From the NCBI RefSeq assembly GCF_003287975.1, contig NZ_QMKQ01000035.1:1-35022 (forward strand): DNA of 35,022 nucleotides. Direction: 5' to 3'. The notes under the pieces were generated by a model, which was given only the letters and a program-made list of their open reading frames with translations, made no database searches and was not told the origin of the DNA. The position numbers and the translations under genes were made by a program. Every line of letters starts with the position of its first letter. Position 1 is the first letter of the stretch. The stretch is from Arthrobacter sp. AQ5-05 (GTDB taxonomy: Bacteria > Actinomycetota > Actinomycetes > Actinomycetales > Micrococcaceae). This document shows, piece after piece, positions 31,376 through 33,953 of this stretch.

Positions 31376-31870
31376 CTACGCCGACTTCAGGTCCAGGTGG
31401 TGGGCCAGGAAGAGCGAGGTTGCCACCCCGTCGGGCGCGGCGTCGCGCATGGCGTAGTCCTCGATGACCGCGTGGATGCGCGCCATCATTTCCTTCTGCG
31501 TTCCTTCGCTGAGCTTCAGCCCAACCCGCATGACCTGGATCTCCTGCGGGGCCAGGCCATCGATTTCCTGCAGGAACGTGTCCACCAGCAGGGGTGCTGC
31601 ATCGGGCAGCTTGGTGCCCCAAGAGAGCTTGGTGCTGCGGTATGGCACTTCCTTGGCCCCGCGGTTTCCCCGGCGGGTTTCCTCGGCCGCGAGGAACCCG
31701 TTGGAGAGCAGCGTGCGCACATGGTGGAGCGATGTTGCCGGATTGATCTCCAGCAGGTCCGCTATTTCCTTGTTGGTACGAGATTCGTGCAAGCAAAGTC
31801 GCAAAATGCGTAGACGGAGCGGGGAGCTCAACGCCCGTGCACGGGCCTGTACCTCTTCATCTGTGGCCAT
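31376..31870 (-). CDS. ArsR-type winged-helix transcriptional regulator
   Basis: A 164-residue protein with an N-terminal winged HTH (about 8-85): ALSSPLRLRILRLCLHESRT, then NKEIADLLEINPATSLHHVRTLLSNGFL. No metal-binding cysteine pair of ArsR/SmtB type is seen, so it probably responds to something other than a metal. The C-terminal half is helical and may dimerise or bind ligand. A -10 box 6 nt before the ATG marks it as leaderless. Its targets are unknown; the close neighbours are convergent or tandem. Confidence 0.88.
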   Translation of the reverse strand: MATDEEVQARARALSSPLRLRILRLCLHESRTNKEIADLLEINPATSLHHVRTLLSNGFLAAEETRRGNRGAKEVPYRSTKLSWGTKLPDAAPLLVDTFLQEIDGLAPQEIQVMRVGLKLSEGTQKEMMARIHAVIEDYAMRDAAPDGVATSLFLAHHLDLKSA

Positions 31871-31876
31871 GGAATC

Positions 31877-31882
31877 AGCATA
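31877..31882 (-). promoter_or_regulatory. -10 box for the leaderless ArsR-type gene
   Basis: TATGCT on the minus strand, then 6 nt, then the ATG at 31870. Confidence 0.5.
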
Positions 31883-31974
31883 CGGGAAAATCCGCCACTG
31901 ATTGAATCATTCAAATCACATGTCCGGGGACTCCCGGTTCGCCGAGTTGGAGGGCCTGTGTGCAGTTTGCCGGC

Positions 31975-32226
31975 TCAGTTGCCGGGTGCGGCGCGCTTGT
32001 GCACCGGGGGCGGAGGAACCCGCTTGGCATGGGTGATGGCCGCCCGGCTGACCTGCACCTCCCCGGTACGGGTCTGCACCGTCACGGAGTGCTCGTCGAT
32101 CGTCAGCAGGTATCCCAGCGCGTCGCTCATCCGTTCGCCGGCCTGCCCCTGCTCATCGGGGGAGAGGCGATAGCGAAGGACCACGCGGGTGCCGGGGTCC
32201 AGGGAATCCAAGAAGTCCGTGCTCAT
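31975..32226 (-). CDS. Stand-alone SH3-like domain related to Rv0428c-type acetyltransferase N-terminus
   Basis: An 83-residue protein: GTRVVLRYRLSPDEQG, a linker, LGYLLTIDEHSVTVQTRTGEV and ITHAKRVPPPP. This pattern matches the SH3-like N-terminal domain that precedes a GNAT domain in Rv0428c-related acetyltransferases, which often sit near fdxA and dapC in actinobacteria. Here the protein stops after the domain, and no GNAT coding sequence follows downstream. It may be a reduced gene or an independent small protein. The ATG at 32226 has a -10 box 6 nt upstream. It is divergent from fdxA. Confidence 0.75.
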   Translation of the reverse strand: MSTDFLDSLDPGTRVVLRYRLSPDEQGQAGERMSDALGYLLTIDEHSVTVQTRTGEVQVSRAAITHAKRVPPPPVHKRAAPGN

Positions 32227-32232
32227 GAACCA

Positions 32233-32238
32233 ATCCTA
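32233..32238 (-). promoter_or_regulatory. -10 box for the leaderless SH3-like gene
   Basis: TAGGAT on the minus strand, then 6 nt, then the ATG at 32226. Confidence 0.5.
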
Positions 32239-32264
32239 GGTCCTGGGTCGCGGCACCAGCAGGT

Positions 32265-32420
32265 GACGCATTTCGTAAGATTTCCGGTGCGACGGGTTCC
32301 CGCGGGTTCTGGATGCGACGCGGGACGTAAGAATTCGCCGGGAGGGGAGCCGCTGCGGCCCGGACTGTGACGTAGAACGTAAGAATTCTCGGGCGGGGGA
32401 GCTGCTGCGGCATTCGGGGC
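32265..32420 (+). repeat. Three tandem 52-bp repeats upstream of fdxA
   Basis: Units at 32265-32316, 32317-32368 and 32369-32420 each begin GACG and carry CGTAAGAWTTC at offset 10 (32274, 32326 and 32378). Units 2 and 3 share about 35 of their first 43 bases; unit 1 keeps mainly the core. The next 52 bp start with a degenerate copy that includes CGGGAC-TAAG, overlapping the fdxA -10 box. The 52-bp period is close to five DNA turns, which would place the cores on one face of the helix. Likely regulatory. Confidence 0.75.
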
Positions 32421-32430
32421 AGGTCGGGAC

Positions 32431-32436
32431 TAAGCT
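32431..32436 (+). promoter_or_regulatory. fdxA -10 box
   Basis: TAAGCT lies in the degenerate fourth repeat unit. Transcription would begin about 32442-32443, giving a leader of some 63 nt to the fdxA GTG. Exactly 6 nt separate it from ATG 32443 of a three-codon ORF. Confidence 0.45.
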
Positions 32437-32442
32437 TGAGTC

Positions 32443-32454
32443 ATGCATGTCTAG
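32443..32454 (+). CDS. Possible leaderless three-codon ORF in the fdxA leader
   Basis: ATG CAT GTC TAG encodes Met-His-Val and stops. It begins 6 nt after the -10 box TAAGCT, the same geometry as the leaderless genes in this window. It could regulate fdxA translation or be incidental. Confidence 0.3.
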   Translation: MHV

Positions 32455-32463
32455 CAGCATGCA
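32444..32463 (+). other. Small hairpin in the fdxA leader
   Basis: TGCATG (32444-32449) and CATGCA (32458-32463) are perfect inverted repeats with an 8-nt loop. They overlap the three-codon ORF. Confidence 0.4.
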
Positions 32464-32505
32464 AATCACCGAACATTTCCGTAGTGAAGGAAGGCCCCGG
32501 GTACC

Positions 32506-32829
32506 GTGACCTACATCATCGCCCAGCCGTGCGTCGACGTCAAAGACAAGGCGTGCATCGAGGAATGCCCCGTGGATTGCATCTACGAAGGCGAACGCTC
32601 GCTGTACATCCACCCCGACGAATGCGTTGACTGCGGCGCCTGCGAACCGGTGTGCCCGGTCGAAGCCATCTACTACGAGGATGACGTCCCGGACCAGTGG
32701 GCGGAGTACTACAAGGCAAACGTCGAGTTCTTCGACGAGGTCGGTTCCCCCGGCGGAGCCGCGAAGCTCGGCAACATGGGCATCGACCACCCGATCATTT
32801 CCGCGCTTCCGCCGCAGGCCCAAGGCTGA
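32506..32829 (+). CDS. fdxA: Seven-iron ferredoxin
   Basis: A 107-residue soluble electron carrier. Cysteine spacing matches seven-iron ferredoxins: Cys9, Cys17 and Cys50 for the [3Fe-4S] cluster; Cys21, Cys40, Cys43 and Cys46 for the [4Fe-4S] cluster; and a free Cys25. The acidic C-terminal extension is normal. The GTG at 32506 (MTYIIAQPC) has AAGGAAGG upstream. It lies 11 nt before dapC, an arrangement common in actinobacteria, probably one operon. The three 52-bp repeats upstream may control it. Confidence 0.96.
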
Positions 32830-32840
32830 TCCGCGACACC

Positions 32841-33953
32841 ATGCTGACGCTCCCTGACTACCCGTGGAACGCCCTTGCCCCCTATCTGGCACGTGCCGCC
32901 GAGCATGAAGGAGGGGCGGTGAACCTGTCCATCGGCACGCCGGTGGATCCCACCCCCGAGATCATCATGCGTGCCCTGCGCGAGGGCGCGAACGCCCCGG
33001 GATATCCCACCACCCACGGCACGCCCGCGGTGCGTGAAGCCATCGTGAACTGGTTCGCGCGCCGGCGCGACGTGCACGGCCTGTCGAGCGACGATGTCAT
33101 GCCGACGGTCGGCTCCAAGGAGCTGGTGGCCTGGCTGCCGCTGCTGCTGGGCCTGGGCGCCGGCGACCTGGTGGTCCGTCCGCGCGTCGCGTACCCCACC
33201 TACGACATCGGCGCGCAACTGGCCGGTGCGGACTCGATCGCCGCCGACTCGCTGGCTTCGCTCTCCGATACGGACCGTGCACGGGTCAAGCTGGTCTGGG
33301 TCAACTCGCCCGGCAACCCCACGGGCATCATCCGCGGGGCCGAGGACCTCAAGGCACTGGTCGATGACGCGCGTTCGCTGGGTGCCGTGGTGGCATCCGA
33401 CGAATGCTATGCGGAGCTCGGTTGGGGCGAACACGAGGCAGGGGTGCCCAGCATCCTTCACGAGTCGGTCAGCGGCTTGGACCACAGCGATCTCCTGGCG
33501 GTGTACTCGCTGTCCAAGCAGTCGAACCTTGCCGGATACCGTGCAGCCTTCGTGGCGGGGGCGCCGAACCTGATGCCCGCACTGATCAACAACCGCAAGC
33601 ATGCCGGGATGATCGTTCCGGCCCCGGTGCAGTCCGCCATGGTTGCCGCCCTGAACGACGACGAACACGTCAAGGCCCAAAAGAACATATACCGGGCACG
33701 TCGCGAGGCGCTGGTTCCGGCGCTCAACGCCTTCGGGCTGCGGATCGAGGATTCGGTGGGCGGACTGTACCTGTGGTGCACCGCCGACGAGGACTGCTGG
33801 AAGACCATTGGCCGGCTCGCCGAGCTGGGCATCGTCGCGGGCCCGGGGGCCTTCTACGGAACGGCCGGAGAGGGGTTTGTGCGCATTGCGCTGACAGAGA
33901 GCGACGAGCGGATTGCCAGCGCCGTCGAGCGGCTTAATGCGGCATCCCGATAG
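32841..33953 (+). CDS. dapC: Succinyldiaminopimelate transaminase
   Basis: A 370-residue fold-type I PLP aminotransferase of the DapC type, placing the amino group of N-succinyl-L,L-diaminopimelate in lysine and peptidoglycan synthesis. Motifs are LSIGTPVDPTPEII, GYPTTHGTPAVREAI, VNSPGNPTG, SDECYAELGW and the PLP-lysine segment SLSKQSNLAGYR. The identification leans on the fdxA-dapC linkage. I chose the ATG at 32841 (MLTLPDYPWNALAPY); the frame stays open into fdxA, but that part is a shadow. Confidence 0.93.
   Translation: MLTLPDYPWNALAPYLARAAEHEGGAVNLSIGTPVDPTPEIIMRALREGANAPGYPTTHGTPAVREAIVNWFARRRDVHGLSSDDVMPTVGSKELVAWLPLLLGLGAGDLVVRPRVAYPTYDIGAQLAGADSIAADSLASLSDTDRARVKLVWVNSPGNPTGIIRGAEDLKALVDDARSLGAVVASDECYAELGWGEHEAGVPSILHESVSGLDHSDLLAVYSLSKQSNLAGYRAAFVAGAPNLMPALINNRKHAGMIVPAPVQSAMVAALNDDEHVKAQKNIYRARREALVPALNAFGLRIEDSVGGLYLWCTADEDCWKTIGRLAELGIVAGPGAFYGTAGEGFVRIALTESDERIASAVERLNAASR

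Follow-up and report, generated by a model that had tools for sequence, protein, structure and literature searches.

A Triple Motif Between Two Divergent Genes

Three near-identical 22-base motifs lie between two divergent genes, one for a stand-alone SH3-type protein and one for the ferredoxin FdxA, and on balance we read them, with modest confidence, as candidate operator sites for one sequence-specific DNA-binding protein placed between two divergent predicted promoters. In the window (the whole stretch of DNA analyzed, 35,022 nucleotides from Arthrobacter sp. AQ5-05), all three copies are on the plus strand, at 32263..32284 (GTGACGCATTTCGTAAGATTTC, kept as copy 1 in the relatives G005, G008, and G006), 32315..32336 (GCGACGCGGGACGTAAGAATTC), and 32367..32388 (GTGACGTAGAACGTAAGAATTC). 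An earlier sequence-only reading had noted a GACG start and a CGTAAGAWTTC core in each unit; both are where it put them on the plus strand, GACG at 32265, 32317, and 32369 and CGTAAGAWTTC at 32274, 32326, and 32378, each series in exact 52-bp steps. With up to one mismatch, GACG-N5-CGTAAGAWTTC matches three times in the window vs 0.17 times expected, a number reached by none of 100 dinucleotide shuffles.

The same reading had described three 52-bp tandem repeats, and this needs amending: three short motifs do recur at 52-bp steps, but the spacers between them are mostly unrelated and the units are not 52-bp repeats, since a longer likeness is confined to units 2 and 3 (46 nt, 80% in the source genome, G000) and Tandem Repeats Finder (score ≥30) gave no row at the array. 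The consensus of the 15 copies (three in each of five carrier genomes) is GYGACGCRNNNCGTAAGAATTC, a weakly dyad motif (ACG-N5-CGT) that is mostly asymmetric.

As RNA, the array stretch has a folding z of +1.0, with 173 of 200 shuffles folding at least as well, and an Rfam search found no match at the array, its single match in 31800-32900 being a weak miRNA (E = 0.79) outside it. Given a fold not beyond chance and no Rfam match at the array, a structured RNA or attenuator was rejected. A mobile, plasmid, or phage origin was likewise rejected, as searches of plasmid, phage, and viral contigs gave no match to the array. The portions of the literature available to us hold no description of a triple-motif element, and in the papers looked into, the string CGTAAGAATTC occurs as a primer sequence.

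Distribution of the Array in Relatives

To place the array among its relatives, fdxA loci were taken from all 15 genomes of the genus. Three copies occur at the same locus in five of them (G000, G005, G008, G006, and G004), nine have no array, and one (G011) is unreadable, with Ns across the intergenic space. In the alignment of fdxA upstream regions that the sequence-only reading had proposed, the core and its approximately 52-bp spacing recur in four genomes beyond the source. The array is patchily distributed, occurring in some Paeniglutamicibacter-type bacteria. Because nine of the 14 readable genomes do without it, it is dispensable for the SH3-type/fdxA gene pair, a point that counts against an operator.

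In a wider set of 395 family genomes, an even draw from a larger group with 380 from other genera, the exact GACGN5CGTAAGAATTC was found in four, every one a member of the genus with its copies at the array locus, and no match turned up in the 380 from elsewhere in the family; a single-base difference keeps the fifth carrier, G008, out of this count. Nor was CGTAAGAATT, at up to one mismatch, found in the 320 bases before fdxA in 30 genomes from 18 other genera, scanned at one locus per genome. A collection-wide search with the array pattern returned nine stretches, two of them in the genus (Arthrobacter sp. C2 and Paeniglutamicibacter psychrophenolicus CC174) and seven in unrelated bacteria. 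Of these seven, the two that were read, a Planctomycetaceae MAG (L056:5340-5620) and Paenibacillus plantiphilus (L054:755-870), carry other tandem arrays with TTCGTAAGAATTC, or something near it, in their copies, though the search pattern itself selects for arrays bearing TTCGTAAGAATTC such as these.

Conservation of the Motif Cores

Among the four closely related carriers, 4 of 45 core columns are variable vs 44 of 111 spacer columns (Fisher p = 1e-4), a spacer count that takes gapped columns as variable; with the 10 gapped columns dropped, the comparison is 4/45 vs 34/101 (p = 0.002), and with the stretch ended at the third core, 4/45 vs 30/69 (p = 6e-5). When the core mask was slid round the 52-bp period, the true register came third lowest, tied, and the minimum fell two bases upstream of it because the leading GY is conserved too. 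In the more distant carrier, G004, the cores are kept in largely diverged spacers, the whole array stretch having approximately 60% identity to the other clade. Within the close clade each copy resembles its counterparts in other genomes more than the neighboring copies, so the copies are older than these species. The triple motif appears to be kept by selection.

Flanking Promoters and the Geometry of the Array

The SH3-type gene (31975..32226, minus strand; PF24551 SH3_Rv0428c) lies between an HTH gene and fdxA in 15/15 genus genomes. Its predicted -10 (TAGGAT, 32233..32238, minus strand) stands 6 nt before the ATG, and since TANNNT is found 6-7 nt ahead of the start in all 14 readable genomes of the genus, the gene is probably leaderless. 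On the opposite side, fdxA (32506..32829, plus strand; NCBIfam FdxA_Actino), which is followed by dapC, has a predicted -10 (TAAGCT, 32431..32436, plus strand) in a genus-wide ACTAAGC and a predicted -35 (GCGGCA, 3/6; 32407..32412, plus strand) 18 nt before TAAGCT; across the 14 readable genomes this -35 likewise matches at 3/6, lying 17 nt from CTAAGC in 13 of them and 16 nt from it in G002. TAAGCT had been taken for a decayed fourth unit merging with the -10, a claim that falls: it lies 51, not 52, bp past the third TAAG, and every one of the 14 readable genomes, including nine without the array, has ACTAAGC, so it is better read as the fdxA -10. Just past the predicted fdxA start point, at 32445-32462, is a short stem-loop (GCATGT..GCATGC) that is predicted on 8/15 genus leaders; its positions are mostly invariant or changed on one side, one pair has changed on both sides, and four of six pairs are broken in one sequence.

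Core spacings are 52/52 bp in G000 and G005, 52/53 in G008, 42/53 in G006, and 53/52 in G004, values (52, 53, and 42 bp) near five or four turns at 10.5 bp. In the 42-bp case a 10-bp direct repeat that stands twice in a row in G008 has dropped to a single copy, and such slippage means that this spacing is not independent evidence for phasing. Of the "same-face operator array" suggested earlier, the operator array is the best reading, given its recurrence, the conservation of its cores, and the lack of an RNA fold beyond chance, and the same-face part, with which the spacings are compatible, is no more than suggestive.

From the first core to the CTAGG that holds the SH3-gene -10, the distance is 38 bp in four carriers and 40 bp in the fifth; from the last core to the ACTAAGC of fdxA it is 51 bp in four carriers and 94 bp in G004. 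The array had been described as running into the fdxA promoter, which does not suit G004 with its 94 bp. Because the distance to the SH3-gene -10 is nearly constant and that to the fdxA -10 is not (51/94), the array goes with the SH3-gene side, and it probably serves the SH3-type promoter and perhaps both. The -35 of the SH3-type gene matches at most 3/6 in the 14 readable genomes, with or without the array. Such a poor element provides a setting where an upstream factor could matter, which counts for an operator, but it is equally poor in the array-less genomes, which counts against one.

Uniqueness of the Motif Within Genomes

The genome-wide search that the sequence-only reading had also proposed supports a single locus: in the 4.65 Mb of the source genome (116 contigs), GACGN5CGTAAGAWTTC matches exactly only at the three array positions, and no further match with zero or one mismatch was found outside the array, while at two mismatches five further places match vs two for a reversed control. 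A looser pattern recovered all 15 array copies across the 15 genus genomes, and outside the array it matched at one mismatch at single places in G001, G004, and G009, with seven matches for the reversed control. When the 15 copies were used to build a motif model, with which 150 of the 710-1531 first-look candidates per genome were scored, the copies reached 24-30 bits and the best other match 15.4 bits; as the copies fit the model by construction, only the gap to the remaining matches is informative. The relaxed pattern TTCTTRCGN6RTCRC had 17 non-array matches in the 15 genomes vs 20 for its reversed control. A second stretch, TTCTTGCGGGCCAGGTCGC, turns up in five genomes in the relaxed-pattern search.

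A gene that we take to be Asp23/Gls24-like has the 15.4-bit matches (G006 and G008) in its upstream region. The promoter-like stretch at this Asp23-type gene (L122, L121), CTTGCG-N6-RTCAC ahead of GTAGGCT, is similar to the array motif taken in the opposite orientation.

Alternative Readings of the Array

The array could instead be a relic, or a neutral duplication on the spot: two further copies of a short segment would have arisen in an ancestor and simply decayed since, with no protein to bind them. We hold this to be unlikely, if well worth weighing: it would account for the patchy distribution (5/14 readable genomes), the longer 46-nt stretch shared by units 2 and 3 of G000, and the fact that neither a second target in the genome nor a regulator was found, but the cores are less variable than the spacers, and cores in G004 that match the other clade across an array stretch only ~60% identical are not expected from neutral decay. 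A structural or recombination element (a resolvase-type site, an iteron, or a partition-like array) in place of a transcription operator seems very improbable to us; three direct repeats with near whole-turn spacing, in a block that may have moved between lineages, would suit such an element, but the place is chromosomal, with the gene order HTH-SH3-fdxA-dapC-gltA kept in 15/15 genomes, none of seven compared neighbor genes is a recombinase or replication gene, the plasmid, phage, and viral contigs hold no match, and the motif is not an inverted repeat of the resolvase kind.

The sequence-only reading had offered tandem promoters as its other option, each CGTAAGAWTTC serving as a -10 and three (or four) of them firing towards fdxA, and this we judge quite improbable. 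TAAG does resemble the TAAGCT of fdxA, and in four genomes copy 1 reads TAAGAT, in agreement with TANNNT, but the cores do not behave as a set of promoters: TANNNT occurs on the plus strand in 5/15 (one of these away from the TAAGA position) and on the minus strand in 6/15, and they lack a conserved -35, the best match at spacers of 15-19 being 4/6 in one core at spacer 19 and otherwise at most 3/6, with inconstant spacing. The conserved GACG ends seven bases before TAAG, a gap too short for a sigma-70 promoter. A consensus promoter scan found none in the array, a result of little weight since it also misses both predicted core promoters. Membership in the wider regulon of a genus-wide regulator, with the Asp23-type promoter as another target, is improbable as well. 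In its favor are the position of the best non-array model matches, a CTTGCG-N6-RTCAC stretch at the Asp23-type promoter in eight of nine genomes looked at (G001 being the exception), and the fact that 6 of the 17 non-array relaxed-pattern matches are the Asp23-type site. Against it, a score of 15.4 bits (E = 0.09 per genome) falls far short of those of the array units, the relaxed pattern finds fewer non-array places than its reversed control, and in the window TANNNT is missing from the array copies at the offset where the Asp23-type gene has its TAGGCT; no wider regulon emerged from the strict pattern, from the motif model with its 150 scored candidates per genome, or from the relaxed pattern.

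A Candidate Operator and Its Possible Action

If the three motifs are operator sites, one protein would bind each copy, and with steps of ~52 bp all three would face roughly one side of the helix, an arrangement in which binding could be cooperative or the DNA could be bent. The copy closest to the SH3-type gene, 38-40 bp from its -10 and just upstream of its poor -35, could act directly on that promoter, with the protein either activating it or repressing it by blocking polymerase; fdxA may be affected too, though only secondarily. The array stretch itself would be non-transcribed if both predicted core promoters are real.

Operator regions with multiple sites between divergent genes are a general bacterial kind, in which paired or tripled sites lie whole helical turns apart. 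The array resembles them in having several motif copies, upstream of both predicted promoters and separated by near-integral turns, and differs in that its motif is mostly asymmetric and that the genome searches turned up no further target. Two features count against an operator, namely that few transcription factors other than a dedicated local one would have just one target per genome, and that the dyad is weak, unlike that of most dimer operators.

The motif was also compared with those of individual regulators. The BldD motif is TNAC-N5-GTNA, and the array motif has a similar half-site look (TGAC...GTAA), but with N7 between TGAC and GTAA and an extra AAGAATTC in the conserved core; a BldD-binding site was rejected on the wrong spacing, YGAC-N7-GTAA occurring in 14 of 15 units and YGAT in the other. 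Sites of the GlxR/CRP type have the form GTG-N8-CAC, which the array motif does not fit, although by eye such a dyad is present in the intergenic space before fdxA in six array-less relatives (G003, G007, G010, G012, G013, and G014).

Were the operator confirmed, it would offer a clean single-locus site from which an actinobacterial regulator could be fished, adjoining both an SH3-type protein gene and a widely conserved ferredoxin gene, and it would show, on a small scale, how closely related bacteria can differ by the gain or loss of a promoter arrangement; its wider consequences for biology would be modest.

Evolutionary History of the SH3-Array Block

A tree of five genes (typA, the HTH gene, fdxA, dapC, and gltA), in which two inner nodes have <50% support, places array-less lineages between the four close carriers and G004, and a grouping of these four with G004 is strongly rejected by the five-gene data (G002 and G011 dropped). 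A sliding comparison that took in 8 of the 15 genomes shows that, in the SH3-type gene and its adjoining spaces, G004 is nearer to the main carrier clade than to its sister G001 (e.g., 78 vs 69% and 79 vs 71%); the flanks mostly side with G001 or show differences of a few points in one direction or the other, and the HTH gene slightly favors the carrier clade. The SH3-type gene data (13/15 genomes, G002 and G011 dropped) reject the complete housekeeping topology (AU p = 0.0015) but do not reject the decisive split, G004 with G001 and G009 (p = 0.12, or 0.10 for a longer block); the longer block does reject a group made up of the carrier clade plus G003, G007, G012, and G013 (p = 0.0005). Collectively, these comparisons suggest a possible transfer of the SH3-array block between lineages, and because the decisive split is not rejected, repeated loss of the array in several lineages is possible as well. 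A more far-reaching proposal, which we regard as distinctly doubtful, is that the SH3-type gene and the triple operator form a small cassette with a dedicated, possibly new kind of binder that has no other target, passed between species by homologous recombination while fdxA and the housekeeping neighbors stay put.

Neighboring Genes and the Candidate Regulator

No binding regulator for the array was identified among the neighbor genes examined, in which the single regulator gene encodes an ArsR-like HTH protein (31376-31870). This protein is 83-99% identical in the other 14 genus genomes, carriers or not, and keeps NPATSLHHVRTLL in 15/15, again irrespective of the array. Ahead of its gene, at 31900-31918, is a palindrome (minus strand TGATTTGAATGATTCAATCA), and this TTGAA-N3-TTCAA form is present in 14 of the 15 genomes, with a variant in G002; it is likely the ArsR-like regulator's own operator. 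Near-identity in carriers and non-carriers, together with the separate palindrome before its own gene, makes the ArsR-like neighbor unlikely as the array binder, and it was set aside as a candidate. Beside the HTH gene, G002 has ~1.5 kb extra, and the copy of the SH3-type gene in G011 is partly masked.

The SH3-type protein has 83 residues and, at a score far below the NCBIfam cutoff, matches the N-terminal part of the model for the CG3035-family N-acetylglutamate synthase. The SH3 domain that opens CG3035/Rv0428c-type acetyltransferases is found here as a small stand-alone protein, beside fdxA in the genus, and its tail is proline-rich and mostly basic. A second FdxA-like gene, 64% identical, is encoded in G004 (C1:3783000-3797000) apart from the other six neighbor genes.
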